Source of the DNA: Fimbriimonadaceae bacterium
GTDB taxonomy: Bacteria; Armatimonadota; UBA10988
NCBI GenBank assembly: GCA_020850355.1
Contig: JADZEX010000090.1
Span: 1-47,185 of the forward strand
DNA length: 47,185 bases
Reading direction: 5' to 3'
The notes beneath the pieces are model-generated. The model was not told the DNA's origin. It did not search any database and was given only the letters and a program-made list of their open reading frames with translations. Of this stretch, positions 25,761 to 46,533 are shown piece after piece. Positions within the stretch are counted from its first letter, which is position 1, and every line of letters begins with the position of its first letter. The position numbers and the translations under genes are program-made.

Positions 25761-27608
25761 ATGCGTCCTAGCCGCCTGTTGCTGCTGTTGCCGCTGTTGC
25801 TGCTCGCCGGCCCCGCCCCCGCGGGCCAGCGCAAGGTCACCCTGTACGGTTTCCAGACCCGTGGCGAGGGCCTGCGGTTGGCCGCCGCGGCCGCCAACCG
25901 CGCCGTGGTGCTGGCGCTGGCGGCGCTGCCCGAGACCACCGCCAGCCGCCTCGAACCCGCCAGCGGCGCCGCCGCCCCGGACCGCACCTGGGCGCTCGGC
26001 GAGCTGAGCGGCAAAATCGCCGAAGTGACCGCCGCCGACCTGGTGCTGTGCGGGGTGCTGACCCGCAGCGGCGAGCAGGTGCTGGTCAGCCTGACCGGCT
26101 ACGATGCCGCCAGCCGGGAACTGCACCTTTCTGCCGCGCTGCAACTGACGCGGCCCACCGGCCGGCCGTCGGCCGACTGGGAGCAGGCCGTCTGTCAGGC
26201 CGCGCTGGCCGCGGTGACGCGCTGGAGTTGGCCCAGCGGCAGCGTCAGCGAGGTGGTCGAGGGGCCCCAGGGGCAGGTCCTACGGCTGCGCTGGACCGCT
26301 GGCCAGGCCGTCCTGGGAGCCACCGCCGCGGCCTGGCGCCGCCCAGCCGCGCGGCTGGCCCTGCAGACCGGTGACCGCTTCGCCGCGCCTTTGGAGCCGC
26401 TCGGCGCGGCCACCCTGGTGCGCACCGAAGGGTCCACCGCCTGGCTGGAGTTGCCCGCCACGCCGGCCGTCACCGCCGGTGAAACGGTCGTCCTGGCCCC
26501 GCTCGGGGCCGCCGTCGAGGAGCCGCCGGGGGTCGTCTTGACCAGCCAGCCGTGGGGGGCGGTGGCCGCCGTCGACGGGCGGCTGCGCGGCGTCACGCCG
26601 CTCTGGGTGCCGCTGGCGATGGCCGGCGAGACCGACCTGCAGTTGCAGCACCCCGACACCACGCTGTGGCGGCGTGCGGTGACCTCGGAGGTCCCGCCGG
26701 GCGGGCTGCTGGAAGCGCTCTTGACCTACGGCAGTGGCGTCAGCGCCCCGGAGACGACCGGGCTCAGCATCAGCGTCGACAGTCGCCCCGCCGGGGCCGA
26801 GGTGCTGCTGGACGGCGTGCCCCAGGGACTCACCCCGGTGCGGCTGACCGGCCTGCGCGGGCGGCCGCTGTTGCTGGTGCGGCGCGAGGGCTACCTGCCG
26901 TGGCAGATGCAGTTGGCCACCAGCGGTCCGGCCGCGGTGGTCGCCGAGCTGCAGCCGGCCTTTGGCGGCCTGGCCGTCAGCAGCCGGCCCGCCGGCGCCG
27001 AGGTCTACGTCGACGGCCACCGCCACGGCGTGACGCCGTTGCGGCTGACCGGCTTGCCGACCGGACCCCACCAGGTGCGGCTGCACGGCCCGGCCGGCCG
27101 CGCGGTGGCCCGCGAGGTGACCATCGCGGCCGGCGGCGAGGCCCAGTTGGAGGTCGACTTCAGCGCCCTCGAAGGCCCACCGGCCCCACCCGAGGACGGC
27201 GCGATCCCGGCCCCGGCGGCACCGTTGCCCGGCCAACTCGCCGTGCAGGGTATCGCCTGGCAGCGCAAGTTCAACGTCGCCCCAGCCAGTCGGCTGCATC
27301 TCGTGGCCGCCCGCCTTGACCGTGGTGGCTTGCTCAGTTGCGCCCTGGCGCCGGTCCGCAGCTACTACGCCGAGCCCGTCGCCGGCGGCTTTCAGATCAC
27401 TTGGCGCGATCTCCCAGTGACGCTGGCCCGGGAGCTGATCGGCGCGGTGACCCTGCCGGAGATCCGCTCCATCGAGCTGCGCGGCGACGGCCAACGGCTG
27501 GTCGTCACCGTGCTGACCGCGCCCGGGGTGGCCGTCAAGGTGCACGACAGCTCCGGCCTCGACCGCCTGCGCGTCGTGCTACTGCCGCCGGGCCCCCCGG
27601 CACCCTAA
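25761..27608 (+). CDS. Exported PEGA-repeat protein with AMIN-like C-terminus
   Basis: A 615-residue protein with signal peptide MRPSRLLLLLPLLLLAGPAPA. The N-terminal 200 residues look like an envelope protein domain that computes on repeated helices (AAAAANRAVVLALAALPE). From about 255 there are three PEGA-type segments: SQPWGAVAAVDGRLRGVTPL, SRPAGAEVLLDGVPQGLTPV and SRPAGAEVYVDGHRHGVTPL. The last 110 residues, after a Pro/Ala linker, resemble an AMIN-like beta domain (IRSIELRGDGQRLVVTVLT). PEGA domains are small surface beta modules. Only a weak ribosome site (GCAGAACC) precedes ATG 25761, which suggests coupling to the Ig-like gene. Its stop codon overlaps the stop of the convergent small gene at 27605. 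Confidence 0.78.
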   Translation: MRPSRLLLLLPLLLLAGPAPAGQRKVTLYGFQTRGEGLRLAAAAANRAVVLALAALPETTASRLEPASGAAAPDRTWALGELSGKIAEVTAADLVLCGVLTRSGEQVLVSLTGYDAASRELHLSAALQLTRPTGRPSADWEQAVCQAALAAVTRWSWPSGSVSEVVEGPQGQVLRLRWTAGQAVLGATAAAWRRPAARLALQTGDRFAAPLEPLGAATLVRTEGSTAWLELPATPAVTAGETVVLAPLGAAVEEPPGVVLTSQPWGAVAAVDGRLRGVTPLWVPLAMAGETDLQLQHPDTTLWRRAVTSEVPPGGLLEALLTYGSGVSAPETTGLSISVDSRPAGAEVLLDGVPQGLTPVRLTGLRGRPLLLVRREGYLPWQMQLATSGPAAVVAELQPAFGGLAVSSRPAGAEVYVDGHRHGVTPLRLTGLPTGPHQVRLHGPAGRAVAREVTIAAGGEAQLEVDFSALEGPPAPPEDGAIPAPAAPLPGQLAVQGIAWQRKFNVAPASRLHLVAARLDRGGLLSCALAPVRSYYAEPVAGGFQITWRDLPVTLARELIGAVTLPEIRSIELRGDGQRLVVTVLTAPGVAVKVHDSSGLDRLRVVLLPPGPPAP

Positions 27609-27862
27609 GCGCTGGGGCCCTCGTCGCCGAACACCCGCAGCCGCACATAGTCGCTTAGCGAGCAGCCGCTGGCCGCGGCCAACTGCTCCAGGAGCGACTT
27701 CTCAGCAAACGACAGCCGCAAGTTGAGCTGCGTCTGCATGCGGCTCTCGGCCCGACAGCAGCGCCCGCGCCGCGGCCCGTGGGGGCAGCCGCAGCGCGGG
27801 CAGCACGGCCGGTCGGCCGCCGGCTCCGGGCCATCGGTCGGGTCAGGAGCCGTGGCAGTCAC
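27605..27862 (-). CDS. Small zinc-ribbon plus ribbon-helix-helix protein, possible autoregulator
   Basis: An 85-residue protein starting at GTG 27862, inside the 3' end of the NifX-like gene (20-base overlap). Residues 20-36 contain CCPRCGC and a later RCC, a likely zinc-binding knuckle. The C-terminal 44 residues (MQTQLNLRLSFAEKSLLEQL, then SGCSLSDYVRLRVFG) have the ribbon-helix-helix pattern: a basic/hydrophobic strand, a helix, a turn and a second helix, as in MobC/CopG/MetJ-like DNA-binding proteins. ATG 27739 would give the RHH part alone. The perfect palindrome at 28290-28309 upstream of the NifX-like gene is a natural candidate operator. Its stop TAG overlaps the TAA of the convergent PEGA gene. 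Metal-dependent control is an inference. Confidence 0.6.
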   Translation of the reverse strand: MTATAPDPTDGPEPAADRPCCPRCGCPHGPRRGRCCRAESRMQTQLNLRLSFAEKSLLEQLAAASGCSLSDYVRLRVFGDEGPSA

Positions 27863-28277
27863 AGCCGCAACCCGCCTCGCCGTGATGGTGTTCGTGGTGC
27901 TCGTGGGGTGTCCCGCAGTCCGGGGCCCGACGCTCGGTCGGGGCGCTCTGAAGGTACTCCTGCACCGCCGCCAGCACCGAGTCCTGGCGCGACGAGACCA
28001 CTTCCAGACCCAGTTGCCGCAGCGCGCGGGCCATCGGGGCGCCCATCCCGCCGGCCACCACCACCTGGCAATCGCCCAGCAGCGCCGCCAGGCGATCATG
28101 GGGATCGACCGGTGCGGCGCCCAGCGCCAGCAGCGCATTCGCGGCTGCCCGGCGGCGGTACTCTGCGGCCTGTGGCAGGTCGCCGTCGACTTCCACCACC
28201 GTGAACCCCTGGGCCCGCCCGAAATGCTGGCAGAGCGCCTGGCCGTCATCCGACGGCACGGCAATCCGTAGTCCCAT
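27843..28277 (-). CDS. NifX/NafY-like dinitrogenase cofactor domain protein with His/Cys-rich tail
   Basis: A 144-residue protein. Residues 1-110 match the dinitrogenase iron-molybdenum cofactor fold (PF02579): LRIAVPSDDGQALCQHFGRA at the start and CQVVVAGGMGAPMARALRQLG later, the latter the usual glycine-rich loop. Homologues outside nitrogen fixers are common and are thought to bind metal clusters. The last 22 residues are HEHHEHHHGEAGCGCDCHGS-like, a strong metal-binding tail. No nif structural genes are near. GGAGATGGAAG precedes ATG 28277, and a perfect 20-bp palindrome lies 13-32 bases upstream. It lies 70 bases downstream of the SPL-like radical SAM gene and overlaps the small RHH gene by 20 bases, suggesting one regulated unit. 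Confidence 0.88.
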   Translation of the reverse strand: MGLRIAVPSDDGQALCQHFGRAQGFTVVEVDGDLPQAAEYRRRAAANALLALGAAPVDPHDRLAALLGDCQVVVAGGMGAPMARALRQLGLEVVSSRQDSVLAAVQEYLQSAPTERRAPDCGTPHEHHEHHHGEAGCGCDCHGS

Positions 28278-28289
28278 CTTCCATCTCCA

Positions 28290-28309
28290 GCGTATAGACG
28301 TCTATACGC
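28290..28309. promoter_or_regulatory. Perfect 20-bp palindromic operator candidate
   Basis: GCGTATAGACGTCTATACGC is its own reverse complement over all 20 bases, AT-rich within a GC-rich genome, and lies 13-32 bases upstream of the NifX-like start. The core AGACGTCT equals the met-box consensus bound by MetJ, an RHH repressor. It may overlap the promoter or leader of the NifX-like gene. The small RHH protein encoded at 27605-27862 is the natural candidate binder; this is an inference. Confidence 0.75.
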
Positions 28310-28347
28310 CATCCAGTGTACCGCGGCGGCCGCGAGTTGACCAGGGC

Positions 28348-29652
28348 TCAGACGGCGACGGGCGAGCCATCGAGGTGGACCGGCCGGGCGATCCGCCAGG
28401 GGCTGGACGACAGGCGGACCAGGCCGGGCGTGGCCTGCGGGCCGCAGCCGCAGGGGTAGTCGCCGGGCCGGTAGCCCAGCGCCGGGCCGAGTTCCTGCCA
28501 CATCGGCAGGCTCTCGGTACACAGGCTGATCGGCACCTCGGCGCTGTAGCGGCGGATTTCGCGGATGCAGAACTCGTACACCTCGCGGCGCAAGTCGTGG
28601 GGGAACGGCCGGACTCGGACCCCCTTCAGCTCGTCCGCGGCGGCCGCGGCGCCGGCCAGGAAGCGTGGGTCGAGCAGGCTGGTGTCGGCCGCCGCGACCA
28701 GCTCCTGGTAGTCCATCCAGGCCAGCGTGAAGAGCGAGATCAGATCGGGCTGGACGGCCGCGAAGAGGTGCTCGATAAGGGTTGCCATTTCGGCTTGCCA
28801 GCCGACCACCGGGACGATCGGCTTCAGCTTGAAGCGCACCGGGTAGCCCCACGATTGGGCCAGCCGGGCGGCCTCGAGGCGTTCCAGCCAGGTGCCCGAG
28901 CCGGGCTCCATGACGGTGCTCTGGGTCGGTCCGGTGAGGCTCCAGACCAGGATCGTGCGCCCGCGGTGCGGCCGGTCCTGGAGCCAGCCAACGTTGGCCG
29001 ACTTGGTGTGTACGATGATGTGCTGGTCGGGCGTGCCGGCGGCCCACTCCAACAGCGCCGGCAGGCCGCCGTACTCGGGCTCGAGCGCCAAGGCCTCGGC
29101 GTCGTCTTCGTAGAGCCAGGTGGTCTGCCAGGGGTTGAGCCGCGACATCCGGTCGAGTTGCGCGACGACTTCCTCGACATTGAGCATCGCGCACCAGGGC
29201 TCGTGGAGGCCGCAGTAGAAGCACTTGTGGGGACAGCCGTAGGTCAGGTGCAGTCGCCAGGCCGGGCGGCAGACGTGGTCCTGCTGCGGCCGGGTCGCGG
29301 AGTGGTGGCTGTCGAACCAGGCGAAGGCGTCGTAGCCATGGGCCGGCTTGAGGGAGTACGGCGCTCGTGGCCAGGTGGCGCGGATTGCCTGCCAGGTCGC
29401 CGGCCAGGCGTCGTCGAAGCGCATCAGTCCCAGGAACAGCCCCGGATCGCGGGCCGGCGGCGGCATCCCCATGCGGCGGTTGTAATGCCAGCCGAACATC
29501 TGCGCGACGTCGGCGATCTGGTCGCGCCGGCAATCGGCGCACGGCGTGTCGGGCGGCAGAGCCGCCAGCAACCGTGCGGCGCGCGCGGCAGTCAGCGGGT
29601 CCTGCCACACCTCGTCGAGCAGAATCACGTACGGCGGCGCCACCGCATACAT
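28348..29652 (-). CDS. Radical SAM protein, spore-photoproduct-lyase-like family
   Basis: A 434-residue protein with the radical SAM cluster motif CPHKCFYC (Cys140, Cys144, Cys147) in YGCPHKCFYCGLH. The following region fits the SPL family: EDDAEALALEPEYGG, IIVHTKSANVGWLQD, then ILVWSLTGP, which parallels the TKS-NVD...WSLN segment of spore photoproduct lyases. SPL repairs a thymine dimer photoproduct, but many SPL-family proteins in non-sporulating bacteria have no known substrate. Extra cysteines (CADC at 38-41 and a late CGCG) may add metal sites. GGGAGGTCGGC precedes ATG 29652. It is upstream of the NifX-like and RHH genes on the same strand. Whether it shares their operon is uncertain since the palindrome lies in between. 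Confidence 0.82.
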   Translation of the reverse strand: MYAVAPPYVILLDEVWQDPLTAARAARLLAALPPDTPCADCRRDQIADVAQMFGWHYNRRMGMPPPARDPGLFLGLMRFDDAWPATWQAIRATWPRAPYSLKPAHGYDAFAWFDSHHSATRPQQDHVCRPAWRLHLTYGCPHKCFYCGLHEPWCAMLNVEEVVAQLDRMSRLNPWQTTWLYEDDAEALALEPEYGGLPALLEWAAGTPDQHIIVHTKSANVGWLQDRPHRGRTILVWSLTGPTQSTVMEPGSGTWLERLEAARLAQSWGYPVRFKLKPIVPVVGWQAEMATLIEHLFAAVQPDLISLFTLAWMDYQELVAAADTSLLDPRFLAGAAAAADELKGVRVRPFPHDLRREVYEFCIREIRRYSAEVPISLCTESLPMWQELGPALGYRPGDYPCGCGPQATPGLVRLSSSPWRIARPVHLDGSPVAV

Positions 29653-41255: not shown

Positions 41256-42890
41256 CTACACCCGGTACCGCCGCAGCTTGACGTGGCGGAAGACGGCGCG
41301 CTTGATGACGCTGCCATCGGATTGGGTCTCGTCAACGCTGTCTCGGCGGGTGGTGGCGTGGTAACAGGCGATGCCCTGCCGCTCGAACTGCTGCACCAGG
41401 TAACAGGTCACTCCCGGCTCGCCCTGGATCAGCGCGCAGTCGCCGGGTTGTAGGCCGGTTAACAGGCCGTGGTGCAACTGCACCAACCAGGGGGCGATCT
41501 GCCGCCCTTCGAGCAGGTCAGCGGTGGCGTCGACGTTGGCGAAGGCCGCGCGGTGCTCTGGGGCGGGATAGACGACGGCGGTGACCTGCAGCTCGCGCTC
41601 CGCGTCGGCCAGTTGCTCGGCGGTCGGGTCGTGGTTCAGGACCACCAGCAGACGCCGACCGTCCTGCCGGAGGGGTGGATCCGCGAAGGCGGCCACCAAC
41701 GGCTGCATTGTCGCCACCTCCCGAGGGCCATCCTCCTCCAGCCCCTGATGGGTGGCGAAGTCCTGCTGGCCGCCCTGCCAGGCGTGGTTGAGGGCGTTGC
41801 GATGCCGCGAGACGATCCGGTAGCTGGCCGCCAGCCGAGCGCCGTAGGCACCGGCGCGATTGGGCAACTGCTCCACCCGCGAACCCACGGTCGCGCGCTT
41901 GGAGCCCGGCAGCAGCCGCCCCATGATCTCGAGCTGCACCTCTTCGAGCAGCGTGTAGCCGGCCTGCCACTGGCGGTGGTCAAAGAGCAGTTGGGCGGCC
42001 GCCAACTGCGCCTGGAGCTGGGCCGCCAGCCCCTCGCCCTGGGGCGCCAGCGGGGCATAGCGCTCACGGATCGGCTGCAGCACCTGCTGCACTGGCGCCA
42101 GCTCCGGCGGCAGGTCTAGCTGCGCCACCTGAGGCCACAGCGCCGCCAGGGCGGCGGCTCGCGTGGCCGTCGCCGCGGCCGCCGCGGCGCTCAACGCGGC
42201 CGCCAGGTCACCGACCGCCTGCCCATACTCCCGCAGCGCCGGCTGCGCGCCGTCCTGCGTCGCGGCGGCGATGCGGTTGGCCAGCCGGGTGGCGTTGCCG
42301 GTGTCGAGCAGTTGGCTGACCGCCGTGGACCAATCGAGCAGCTCCAGCAGCGGGCTGAGGTCGAAGACCGGCGCCACGCCCTGCTCGTCTTTGGCGTCGA
42401 AGGCGCCGTAATAGACCTGCCGCAGGTGCAGCCCCTGGACCTGTTTCAGAAACGCCAGCGCGATGCACAGCACGATCGGGAAGCAACGGAAGCCGTGGGT
42501 GACATCGACGACCAGATCGTGATCCGGCCGAATCGCCGCGGTGATTCGCTCGAACATCGTCCAGAGCTCGGCCTCGGTGCGCCCCTCCGGGAAGGACTCG
42601 ACCGGCTCGATCACCACGCCGCAGGCCTGCAGGCCGGGCTCCAGGCCGGGCCGCGGTGAGGTCTCTCCTTTGGCCAGGCGGGCCAGCTCCCAGTTGTGCT
42701 CCGCCGCGGCTGCCGTGAGGCACACCGTGACGCGCTCCACCGGCCGCGCCTGCTGCGCCAGCAACTTGACCAGGGCGACTTGGACAAACGGCTCCGGCGC
42801 AGTACACTGCGCAGCGAGGCGGTACGGCACGGCAGTGTAACTGCCTGTGCCCAGAAACGTCAGCAACTGGATCGGTCGAGTTGCACTCAT
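41256..42890 (-). CDS. CRISPR CARF-HEPN effector (Csx2/DxTHG type) fused to Csx20-like domain
   Basis: A 544-residue protein. Residues 8-200 match the TIGR02221 DxTHG family: LLTFLGTGSYTAVPYR, SEELW-like RTEAELWTMF, DVTHGFRCFP (129-138) and YYGAFDA; this is a CARF sensor for cyclic oligoadenylate. Residues about 210-400 are helical with R-x4-H (RNALNH, 364-369), the HEPN ribonuclease site. Residues 412-544 form an extra domain (LLVVLNHDPTAEQLADA, GDCALIQGEPG, ATTRRDS, FRHVKLRRY) that matches my memory of Csx20, a family proposed to be a ring nuclease that degrades the activator. So sensor, RNase and off-switch may lie in one chain. GAGGGGAGCG precedes ATG 42890. It is divergent from the CARF-nuclease gene. 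The Csx20 match needs a profile search. Confidence 0.85.
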   Translation of the reverse strand: MSATRPIQLLTFLGTGSYTAVPYRLAAQCTAPEPFVQVALVKLLAQQARPVERVTVCLTAAAAEHNWELARLAKGETSPRPGLEPGLQACGVVIEPVESFPEGRTEAELWTMFERITAAIRPDHDLVVDVTHGFRCFPIVLCIALAFLKQVQGLHLRQVYYGAFDAKDEQGVAPVFDLSPLLELLDWSTAVSQLLDTGNATRLANRIAAATQDGAQPALREYGQAVGDLAAALSAAAAAATATRAAALAALWPQVAQLDLPPELAPVQQVLQPIRERYAPLAPQGEGLAAQLQAQLAAAQLLFDHRQWQAGYTLLEEVQLEIMGRLLPGSKRATVGSRVEQLPNRAGAYGARLAASYRIVSRHRNALNHAWQGGQQDFATHQGLEEDGPREVATMQPLVAAFADPPLRQDGRRLLVVLNHDPTAEQLADAERELQVTAVVYPAPEHRAAFANVDATADLLEGRQIAPWLVQLHHGLLTGLQPGDCALIQGEPGVTCYLVQQFERQGIACYHATTRRDSVDETQSDGSVIKRAVFRHVKLRRYRV

Positions 42891-42991
42891 CGCTCCCCTC
42901 CGCACCGCACCGCAGTTCGGCGGAGCAGCCCCGGGGTCCTTCAGGCGATCGAGCGCGACTGTGACGGTTGGCTGCGGGAGGGCGCAAAGCG

Positions 42992-44362
42992 ATGGCGACG
43001 ACAGCTTACCCTTGGGCCAGGCGACTGCAGGTGGTACGCCAGCAACTGGCACCGGTGCAGGTGGACACGCTGTTCTCGACGGTCGGCAGCAACCCCCTGC
43101 CGATTGCCGTCACGGCTCGCCTGGTGCTGCGCGAAGGCGGCCACCTGGTGCTGGTCCACACCGCGGGCACCCGCCGCTGCGCCGAGGCGCTGCACGGTGT
43201 GATCGGTCCGTCGCGCGACGGCTGCCGGGTCAGCAGCTTCGAGGTGCCCGACAGCGATCCCGCGGTGATCTACTCGACCGTGCAGCAGCAGGTGCCCCGG
43301 TTGGCGCCCAGCGGCGCGGTCGGCGTCGACTTCACCGGCGGCACCAAAGCAATGTCGGTCTTCGTCTCGACCGCGGCCACCGCTGCGCTCGGATCTCGGC
43401 CGCACTTCAGTTACTACCTCGACGACCGGCGCGACCTGTTGCACACCGTCTGCCACCGCGACGGCGGACAGGCCAGTGGTCCGCAGGCGGCGGTCGGCCT
43501 GCAACCCGTGCTGCTGCCGGCCGAGGTGCTGTTGTTGCACGGCCAGATCCCGATCAATGCGCTCGCTCCGCCGCGGCCGCAGCTCGCCCAGACCACCCAG
43601 GTGCTGGCCCAGGTCTACGCCAAATGGGACCCCCGCAAGGCCTGGTGCGCGTGGTTGGACCGCCTCACGCACTATGAGACCTGGCAGCAGGTCGACCGAC
43701 AGCGGCAACGCCTCACCCGCGACACGCCGCAACCCGACCGGGACGGCCAGGAGCGCCCGGGCTGGGACTGGGGCGCCTGGCCGACGAAGCACCCGCTGTT
43801 GGGCCGGCTCCGGGAGTCGCTGCAGGCCGAGTCGGGGGTGTGCTGCGCTCCGGGGGTGCAGCCCGCGGACTTCACCGCAGCCCTCGGCTGGGCCGAAGGC
43901 GAGTTCGTCGATTGGCTCCGCGGCAAGTGGCTCGAAGACCACACCTATGCCGCGATCGCCGTCCTGCCGCCTGAACTGGGCTTGCGGCCGCACGGCGTCA
44001 GCGTGCACTGCGAGCTGGTCGGCGTCGATGCCAGCGGGACCGCCGCGATGGATCCCGAGACGCGGTTCGAGGTCGATGTCCTGGCCACTCGGGGGTACCG
44101 CCTGTGGGGCTGCAGTTGCACCACCAGCGGCGACCGCAAGCTCTGCAAGACCAAGCTCTTCGAGGCCGCGCAGCGTTTCCGCCAGCTCGGCGGCGGCGCC
44201 GCGCGGGTGATCTTGGTCTGTGGCGCCACCAACGCTGGGGCCATCGAGAAGCAGACCCAGACGCTCTTCCAGGACCACAACCAGCCCTGGGTCGCTGGCG
44301 CGGCCGCCTTGCCCGACCTCGCCGGCTGGCTCCACCGCCGACTCGCCGCCCGCTGCACTTGA
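42992..44362 (+). CDS. CARF protein with PD-(D/E)xK-type nuclease domain (Card1/Can2-like)
   Basis: A 456-residue protein. The N-terminal CARF domain contains GVDFTGGTKAMS (111-122), the canonical D-x-TGGTK nucleotide-binding loop. The C-terminal domain (from about 300) starts EGEFVDWLRGKWLEDHTYAAI, typical of the DUF1887 nuclease family, then FEVDV (359-363, candidate catalytic Glu/Asp) and GCSCTT (373-378). The last motif is ECKT in standard Card1/Can2, so the second acidic residue and lysine are replaced by Ser and Thr. Lys386 and Lys388 on the next helix could be a migrated lysine. It should be a cyclic-oligoadenylate-activated DNA/RNA nickase or a derivative. ATG 42992 is preceded by GGAGGG 11 bases upstream. 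It is 69 bases upstream of the membrane CARF gene. Confidence 0.85.
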   Translation: MATTAYPWARRLQVVRQQLAPVQVDTLFSTVGSNPLPIAVTARLVLREGGHLVLVHTAGTRRCAEALHGVIGPSRDGCRVSSFEVPDSDPAVIYSTVQQQVPRLAPSGAVGVDFTGGTKAMSVFVSTAATAALGSRPHFSYYLDDRRDLLHTVCHRDGGQASGPQAAVGLQPVLLPAEVLLLHGQIPINALAPPRPQLAQTTQVLAQVYAKWDPRKAWCAWLDRLTHYETWQQVDRQRQRLTRDTPQPDRDGQERPGWDWGAWPTKHPLLGRLRESLQAESGVCCAPGVQPADFTAALGWAEGEFVDWLRGKWLEDHTYAAIAVLPPELGLRPHGVSVHCELVGVDASGTAAMDPETRFEVDVLATRGYRLWGCSCTTSGDRKLCKTKLFEAAQRFRQLGGGAARVILVCGATNAGAIEKQTQTLFQDHNQPWVAGAAALPDLAGWLHRRLAARCT

Positions 44363-44430
44363 CGCGCGCCCGAGCGCTTGAGTAGACTCCTTCCCGAGCC
44401 GTCGCCACCGCGGCGGCGGGGAGGGTTGAG

Positions 44431-45168
44431 ATGAGCTACGGCAGTTCCTACCGGCGGGCGTTCGACGCCATCTTCCAACCGCGTAACATCGGCTTGTTCC
44501 TGGTCGCCACGGTGGCACTCAACTTCGCCACCAGCGCCGCCTACGACCTGCTGCGCAACTCGCTCGGGCCAGACGTCGGGCGGCTCTGGTGGGTGCTGTT
44601 GGCGAGCATTCTGGCGGTCGTGCTGTTGGTCTGTTGGTTGCGACGCCTGGCGGTCCCTCGCGAGCAGATGGTGATCCACAGCCACGCCGCGCCATCTGCC
44701 CGCCGGGGGCTGATCTGCTTGTTCGGCCGGTCCGAGGTGGTTGAGCAGTCACTAAGGCACCACAGCGGAGAGTTGGAGCGCGTCTGGCTGCTCACCTCGC
44801 TACGCGACCTGCCTGAAGCCCAGCGCTTGGCCGCGGAGCAGCCCGACCTGGGCTGGGCGCAGCCGTTCGTGCTCAACGACCTGTACAGCCCGAGCGCTGC
44901 GTTTGCGGCAGTCAACCAGGTGCTCGACAACCTGCCCGAAGGCTGGACCAATGCGGACCTGGTGGGCGACTTCACCGGCCTCACCGCCCAGTGTTCCGTT
45001 GGCTTGGTGCTGGCCTGCCTGAACCGTGAGGTCGCCCTGCAGTACACCCCAGCCGCGTTGGACAAAGACGGCAAGGCGAACGGCTCCATGCCGCCGATCG
45101 AAACCCGGTTGGACTTCGTTGTTGCCACGGAGGAGGCGCCGGTGACATGCCCCGCACCCTCTGGGTGA
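44431..45168 (+). CDS. Membrane-anchored CARF-like protein (Cam1-like)
   Basis: A 245-residue protein with two hydrophobic helices at 20-41 and 52-71, followed by a soluble domain. In that domain, GLICLFGRSEVVEQSL resembles the first CARF strand and helix, and LVGDFTGLTAQCSVGLVLACL (178-198) matches the D-x-TGGTK-x-M loop in altered form (GLTAQ instead of GGTKA). Membrane CARF effectors such as Cam1 bind cyclic tetra-adenylate and depolarise the membrane; Cam1 has the same helices-then-CARF order. Loss of the second Gly and Lys may change ligand. The gene lies between the CARF-nuclease and cas2, with a 22-base overlap with the latter, so it belongs to the CRISPR operon. GGGAGGGTTGAG precedes ATG 44431. 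Confidence 0.75.
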   Translation: MSYGSSYRRAFDAIFQPRNIGLFLVATVALNFATSAAYDLLRNSLGPDVGRLWWVLLASILAVVLLVCWLRRLAVPREQMVIHSHAAPSARRGLICLFGRSEVVEQSLRHHSGELERVWLLTSLRDLPEAQRLAAEQPDLGWAQPFVLNDLYSPSAAFAAVNQVLDNLPEGWTNADLVGDFTGLTAQCSVGLVLACLNREVALQYTPAALDKDGKANGSMPPIETRLDFVVATEEAPVTCPAPSG

Positions 45169-45446
45169 TTGCCTACGACATCACCGACGACGGCCTCCGG
45201 ACGCGGGTGCAGCACGCGCTCGAACCGGTCGGCGAGCGGCGGCAGCGGAGTGTCTTCGAGTGTCGCCTCAGCGACGAGGAGCTGCGGGTGCTGTGGCAGC
45301 AGCTTGCCCGGCTGATCGATCCAGCTACCGACAGCGTGCTGGCCTGGCCGCTGACCGCCGCCGGACACGGCCGCAGCCGCGCGCTCGGCTGCGCCACGGT
45401 CAGCCCCTACGAACTGCCCGCCTGGCAGGTCGCCGGACCGGAGTGA
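45147..45446 (+). CDS. cas2: CRISPR-associated Cas2
   Basis: A 99-residue protein of normal Cas2 length. It starts RTLWVIAYDITDDGLRTRVQHAL, the ferredoxin-like first strand with the conserved Asp, followed by the R-rich helix and QRSVFECRLSDEEL, the second strand typical of Cas2. Cas2 dimerises and acts with Cas1 in spacer integration. Here it starts within the 3' end of the membrane CARF gene and ends 4 bases before the reverse transcriptase gene, so all three are probably translated from one message. GGAGGAGG lies about 12 bases upstream of ATG 45147. No cas1 is in the window, which is unusual next to cas2. Confidence 0.93.
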   Translation: MPRTLWVIAYDITDDGLRTRVQHALEPVGERRQRSVFECRLSDEELRVLWQQLARLIDPATDSVLAWPLTAAGHGRSRALGCATVSPYELPAWQVAGPE

Positions 45447-45450
45447 GGCG

Positions 45451-46533
45451 ATGTCCAGCCTGCTGCTGCCAGCCGTCGTCAGTCCGGACAACCTCTGGCA
45501 GGCCTGGCAGGCCGTGCGCGAGCGGGACAGCGCGCCGGGGCTGGACGGGCAGGCCGTGGCCCATGTCGCCAGCGATCCGGAGCCCTGGCTGCGGAAGCTC
45601 CGCGGCGAGGTGCTCGCCGGGCGCTACCGCCCCTGGCCGCGGCGGCGAGTCTGGGTGCCGAAGGCCAGCGGCGGCCGGCGGCCGCTGGGGATCGCCACCC
45701 TCCGCGACCGCCTGCTGCAACGCGCGGTGCTGCAACTGCTGCAGCCGCTGGCCGAACCGCTGTTCAACGGCAGCAGCTTCGCCTACCGTCCGGGGCGCAG
45801 CCTGCGGCAGGCCGTGCGGGCCGTGCGGCAGGGGCAGCGGCACGGCTTCCACCTGATCCTGGAGGCCGACGTCGACGACTGCTTCGACAGCCTCGACCAC
45901 GACCTGCTCCGCAGCGCCGTGCGCCGGCTGGTGCCAGCCGACGACCTCCGCGCCCTGATCGGCTTGTGGCTGCGCGCCGGTGTCGTCGAGCGGGGCCGCC
46001 TGGTGGTGCCCGAACGGGGCGTCTCGCAGGGCGACATCCTCTCGCCGCTGCTCTGCAACCTCTACCTCGACCCGCTCGACGACGCCTGCGAAGCCGCCGG
46101 GCACCGCCTGGTGCGCTACGCCGACGACTTCATCGTGCTCTGCCGCAACGGCGCCGCCCTGCGCCAGGCCACCGCCTGTGTCGAGCAGACCCTGACCGCC
46201 CTGCGGCTGCGGTTGGAGCCAACCAAGACCGGCCCCAGCAGCTTCGAGCACGGGTTCACCTTCCTGGGAGTCCAGTTTCAGGGCAACCGCGCCGCCGCCG
46301 TCTCACCCCGCCTCGGCTTCGACGCCGCCGGCGAACTGCGCGCCAGGCCGCAGCCGCGGTACGAGGACCGCCCGCCGGGCCCCGCCCAGGACCACGCCAG
46401 CCGCGTCGAACGGACTCTCAACCGCCACGCCGCCATCGCCAGCCGCGGCCACCGGCCCCCCAACCAGGTCGCCCACGCGCTGCAGGAGGCTCTCGAACAC
46501 AGAGGAACATGGGACGATCTAGAATGGATTTGA
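45451..46533 (+). CDS. CRISPR-associated stand-alone reverse transcriptase
   Basis: A 360-residue reverse transcriptase of the group II intron/CRISPR type. Conserved blocks: RPLGIATLRDRLLQRAV (motifs 1-2), FAYRPGRSLRQAV, EADVDDCFDSLDH (motif A, Asp140), GVSQGDILSPLLCNLYLDPLD (about 190-210), YADD at 223-226 (motif C) and EPTKTGPSSFEHGFTFLG. A C-terminal tail of about 80 residues is rich in Pro/Arg and lacks an intron-type thumb/HNH endonuclease or a Cas1 domain. CRISPR-linked RTs usually are fused to, or next to, Cas1 in type III systems and permit spacer acquisition from RNA. Here it follows cas2 by 4 bases and precedes the leader and array. GAGG precedes ATG 45451. Functional pairing with an out-of-window Cas1 is inferred. 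Confidence 0.9.
   Translation: MSSLLLPAVVSPDNLWQAWQAVRERDSAPGLDGQAVAHVASDPEPWLRKLRGEVLAGRYRPWPRRRVWVPKASGGRRPLGIATLRDRLLQRAVLQLLQPLAEPLFNGSSFAYRPGRSLRQAVRAVRQGQRHGFHLILEADVDDCFDSLDHDLLRSAVRRLVPADDLRALIGLWLRAGVVERGRLVVPERGVSQGDILSPLLCNLYLDPLDDACEAAGHRLVRYADDFIVLCRNGAALRQATACVEQTLTALRLRLEPTKTGPSSFEHGFTFLGVQFQGNRAAAVSPRLGFDAAGELRARPQPRYEDRPPGPAQDHASRVERTLNRHAAIASRGHRPPNQVAHALQEALEHRGTWDDLEWI

Follow-up and report, generated by a model that had tools for sequence, protein, structure and literature searches.

Genes and features of the locus

In the window, by which we mean the whole analysed stretch of 47,185 nucleotides, a minus-strand array comprises, in this order, a radical SAM gene, 38 bp of spacer, a perfect palindrome, a further 12 bp and the start codon of a NifX-like gene, the stop region of which overlaps a gene for a ribbon-helix-helix (RHH) protein (Table 1). 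The palindrome is thus contained within the 70-bp gap ahead of the NifX-like gene and the RHH gene belongs to the same unit, just as the earlier note had described the neighbourhood. No synteny of the radical SAM gene was detected in relatives, and its paralogues elsewhere do not adjoin a NifX-like gene. A convergent gene for a PEGA-domain protein (25761-27608, plus strand) and the RHH gene overlap at their stop codons (27605-27608). Elsewhere in the window, a CRISPR-associated cluster (41256-46533) contains a Cas2 gene (45147-45443; PF09827) adjoining a reverse transcriptase gene (45451-46530; PF00078); the open reading frames ahead of Cas2 gave no Pfam match and have a CARF/Csx-type look by eye.

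Table 1. Coordinates of the features discussed in the text
Feature	Position	Strand	Remarks
RHH protein	27605-27862	-	85 aa from GTG 27862, or RHH-only from ATG 27739
NifX/NifB-C-terminal-like protein	27843-28277	-	144 aa, His/Cys-rich tail; PF02579, E = 1.4e-15, above cut-off
20-bp perfect palindrome GCGTATAGACGTCTATACGC	28290-28309	none	two abutting 8-bp boxes, GTATAGAC and GTCTATAC, with GC/GC flanks
Putative weak sigma-70-like promoter, TGGTCA-17 bp-TACACT	28315-28343	-	8 of 12 matches, read from sequence
SPL-like radical SAM protein	28348-29652	-	upstream same-strand gene; PF20903, E = 4.4e-12; stop 38 bp before palindrome
TATATG-N7-CATATA, relative L010	982, 1452		
TATATG-N7-CATATA, relative L021	966, 1426		
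TATATG-N7-CATATA, relative L029	1436		
TATATG-N7-CATATA, relative L033	994		
TATATG-N7-CATATA, relative L037	996, 1460		

The NifX-like protein matches PF02579 with 57.8 bits (curated cut-off, 26.3), and its best relatives of solved structure are 1t3v and 1o13. It does not reach the NifX equivalog cut-off, and we therefore claim no nitrogenase function for it. Homologues were found neither in plasmids nor in viral contigs. The RHH protein, in turn, scores 30.9 bits against the NikA-like family PF21983 (curated cut-off, 27) and is the only member of this family in the genome. Its start is uncertain: the GTG codon yields the 85-residue protein of the earlier note, whereas the internal ATG yields an RHH-only protein of 43 to 44 residues. 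Codon statistics lend coding support only to the RHH half, from about Met43, and are neutral for the Cys-rich first part, which may accordingly not be translated. The short form, at about 44 residues, would come close in size to CopG (45 residues) and Arc (53 residues) (PMC4803016). A zinc ribbon had also been attributed to this protein. That assignment is not supported: the cysteine cluster (CCPRCGC...CC) is non-canonical, with none of the CxxC...CxxC pairs of a standard zinc ribbon, and translation of that part is doubtful. An AlphaFold model computed from the single sequence is poor (pLDDT 61), forming two helices but not the strand; Arc and TacA come out as the closest folds, without statistical significance (E>4).

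Upstream of the palindrome, the hexamers TGGTCA and TACACT, spaced by 17 bp, might constitute a weak promoter, which falls below the threshold of 9 of 12 matches in a consensus promoter scan. The -10-like TACACT ends 5 bp ahead of the palindrome. Read in this way, the pair would start transcription at roughly base one of the palindrome, where repressor operators are classically located.

Sequence and rarity of the palindrome

The palindrome GCGTATAGACGTCTATACGC is identical to its own reverse complement over 20 bp and is the longest perfect palindrome of the window, the runners-up having 18 bp. As the earlier note had remarked, it is AT-rich, within DNA of 72% GC. Its length by itself is unremarkable, since base composition alone predicts 0.26 perfect 10-bp arms per window. 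If at least 10 of the 20 positions are required to be A or T, however, the expectation drops to 0.01 per window in a Markov-1 simulation and to 0.0015 per window for independent bases. In a 328-kb sample of the same genome, four perfect palindromes of at least 20 bp were found, all of them GC-rich, and the only other equally AT-rich palindrome of at least 18 bp was the parS-like TGTTTCACGTGAAACA (18 bp). This perfect parS-like sequence is located at positions 3314-3331 of L079 (G000:C19). It is composition and position, more than length, that make GCGTATAGACGTCTATACGC unusual.

The 16-bp core of the palindrome consists of the abutting boxes GTATAGAC and GTCTATAC, each symmetric at six of eight positions. 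Within it, TAGA subsites are present in inverted orientation (TATAGA/TCTATA), with hexamer centres 8 bp apart. MetJ subsites are likewise spaced by 8 bp. The 8-mer AGACGTCT, which spans the junction of the two boxes, equals the met-box consensus, for which the chance expectation is 0.39 per window. In the met-box register, the central box matches at eight of eight positions and the adjoining boxes at only four and five of eight. MetJ operators are built of tandem met boxes and belong to gammaproteobacteria (PMC4239095). A profile search that found the control in E. coli recovered no MetJ (PF01340) from the present genome. The identity of the core with a MetJ site, as drawn in the earlier note, is hence correct for the 8-mer, whereas the parallel with MetJ fails on the lack of PF01340, on the lack of a good tandem partner and on the Arc-like Q-N-R strand of the RHH protein.

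Distribution of the palindrome and of its gene neighbours

A second copy of the palindrome, at up to three mismatches of 20 or of 16 positions, does not exist in the 6.67-Mb genome, and none of 290 other genomes of the phylum contains it at up to two mismatches. Pilin-like sequences of these relatives point to Armatimonadota as the phylum. At three mismatches, 14 of the 290 genomes give a match, compared to about 39 for a reversed-letter control. These counts make a global regulator unlikely. The exact 16-mer GTATAGACGTCTATAC occurs in two viral contigs (L017, 1540-1555; L018, 2055-2070), with GTATAGA/GTCTATAC half-sites close by; these contigs are low in GC, no related genes were seen on them, and the sites may serve the contigs themselves as operators or iterons.

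A search for orthologues of the RHH protein came up empty in the 290 other phylum genomes, in plasmids and in viral contigs. Matches within the phylum proved to be TacA-type antitoxins accompanied by GNAT toxins rather than orthologues, and the TacA-type operators in L012 and L013 (TGTGTACAATGTACG) are unlike GCGTATAGACGTCTATACGC; one match from a wider scan of genome contigs, in Collinsella, is a transposase-type zinc ribbon and an artefact. A systematic search of this phylum retrieved no orthologous pair of NifX-like and RHH genes, and the NifX-like genes of 29 other phylum genomes have neither a similar palindrome nor an RHH neighbour. Looking for the palindrome upstream of homologues, a check proposed at the outset, thus gave a negative answer that neither refutes nor supports the idea, because the RHH gene is absent from those genomes too and its absence leaves no fair test of conservation. 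The palindrome is as narrowly distributed as the RHH protein, which, as a single example, is consistent with a local regulator of a single target but is no proof of it. Nothing useful was found in the literature on the palindrome sequence or on a pairing of NifX with RHH proteins.

In four relatives (L010, L021, L033 and L037), a PadR-family gene lies directly upstream of the NifX-like gene. Palindromes of the form TATATG-N7-CATATA are present before padR, in the padR-nifX gap or in both places, whereas shuffled sequences predict 0.024 per locus. Judged from this arrangement, the relatives likely harbour a metal-protein operon under PadR control.

Candidate regulators and comparison with known systems

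Which factor might act at the palindrome? We consider it likely that the palindrome serves as an operator for some DNA-binding regulator. The more specific proposal, that it is the single-target operator of the NifX-like/RHH unit and that the unit's own RHH protein represses through it, is the simplest reading and the one we prefer, at about even odds. Arc contacts its TAGA box with Gln9, Asn11 and Arg13 (PMC12645479), and the RHH repressor RelB, which binds neighbouring 6-bp repeats of the operator palindrome at its own operon, shows that autorepression can depend on subsites that directly adjoin (PMC2812701). Autoregulation by the RHH protein is supported by this RelB precedent and by the probable PadR-regulated NifX-like operons of relatives; by the position of the palindrome, 5 bp past TACACT and 12 bp ahead of the start codon; by a perfect AT-rich symmetry far above local chance; by the single genomic copy, as expected of a local rather than a global regulator; and by a second gene whose RHH domain passes the Pfam cut-off and which is the sole PF21983 member of the genome. 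The strand TQLNLRL of this domain, moreover, carries the Arc-like Q-x-N-x-R, and the palindrome contains TATAGA/TCTATA. Because N-x-R is also found in RHH antitoxins (a TacA antitoxin among them), the match to Arc comes down to about one extra residue and is suggestive only. In the scenario we envision, each of the two 8-bp boxes would be occupied by an RHH dimer, the two dimers lying next to each other. Their beta-ribbons would enter the major groove to read the inverted TAGA/TCTA subsites, and RNA polymerase would thereby be kept from the transcription start.

Several observations cast doubt on this scenario. There is no orthologous pair and hence no evidence from conservation, the putative promoter is weak and the structure model poor. 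The gene of the presumed regulator comes second in the unit, and the NikA-like family consists of relaxosome proteins, which do not usually repress promoters. Subsites of Arc are spaced by 11 bp, and TAGA subsites at this spacing are not found here, the TAGA/TCTA hexamer centres being 8 bp apart. Of the autoregulated, metal-responsive circuit initially put forward, an operator for an RHH autoregulator remains plausible by virtue of position, AT-rich symmetry, uniqueness and the RHH gene in the unit. The response to zinc or metal, which has its only basis in Cys/His-rich tails, is not supported, and it would be speculation to make repression dependent on metal or the NifX-like protein. That the NifX-like protein might be a metal-cluster carrier acting as sensor or co-repressor for the palindrome-bound RHH protein, the two forming a metal- or cofactor-sensing autoregulatory pair and a counterpart of the PadR-NifX pairs, strikes us as rather improbable.

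Alternatively, the operator might serve a regulator from another locus, such as a repressor of the GntR/HutC type. Both GTATAGAC and GTCTATAC fit the HutC consensus GTMTAKAC (PMC4494728) and are the only such sites in the window (two or more arose in 5 of 100 shuffles), and the genome encodes one GntR protein with a UTRA domain. The gene for the latter, however, is found on a different contig, next to one for an oxidoreductase, and no GTMTAKAC site lies near it; from a global regulator one would expect more than a single site across 6.67 Mb; and HutC dimers bound to both of the abutting 8-bp boxes would presumably get in each other's way. We regard this explanation as unlikely. An RNA hairpin at the extreme 5' end of the transcript, which might protect the mRNA or tune translation, seems improbable, even though the minus-strand leader can fold into a 9-bp hairpin (-12.1 kcal/mol, z -2.7) near the predicted transcription start and just before the ribosome site. 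Such a hairpin is a consequence of any perfect palindrome, and the symmetry continues through the loop (ACGT), which is unneeded for a hairpin and expected of a DNA site. In addition, the leader has no match in Rfam, and no U-tract follows, so that the hairpin is not an intrinsic terminator. A chance palindrome devoid of function would fit the 0.26 10-bp arms per window predicted by composition and the finding that the palindrome is conserved nowhere. This explanation is made quite improbable by the AT-rich composition, which lowers the expectation to 0.001-0.01 per window, and by the intergenic promoter position, which lowers it further.

If autorepression by the RHH protein were confirmed, a NifX-like protein from an uncultured bacterium would have a circuit of one operator and one regulator. 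Together with the PadR-linked operons, this would suggest that these small metal-cluster proteins frequently come with a dedicated regulator, whose fold varies from case to case. The circuit itself would be of an ordinary kind, and no general concept would be altered even then.

How does the proposed arrangement compare with known systems? With the autoregulated RHH operons of P22 Arc, E. coli relBE (RelB) and CopG, it shares a small RHH protein that would govern the very operon encoding it, and a palindromic operator near the promoter with adjoining subsites of 6-8 bp. It differs in that the regulator comes second, its partner is NifX-like instead of a toxin or a replication protein, and binding is predicted. 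The likeness to Arc extends to the Q-x-N-x-R strand and the TAGA subsites, the latter lying 8 bp apart rather than 11 bp. MetJ and its met boxes resemble the present case in the core 8-mer AGACGTCT, the RHH fold class and the 8-bp unit, whereas here only one box is perfect, MetJ and methionine genes are missing and the strand residues differ. Operators of the GntR/HutC type are similar in that each palindrome half fits GTMTAKAC, and dissimilar in that the sites abut here and no HutC-type gene is nearby. The PadR-NifX operons of the same phylum have in common with our locus a NifX-like gene that is preceded by palindromes and accompanied by a locally encoded DNA-binding protein; theirs place PadR upstream and use TATATG-N7-CATATA, whereas here the RHH gene lies downstream.
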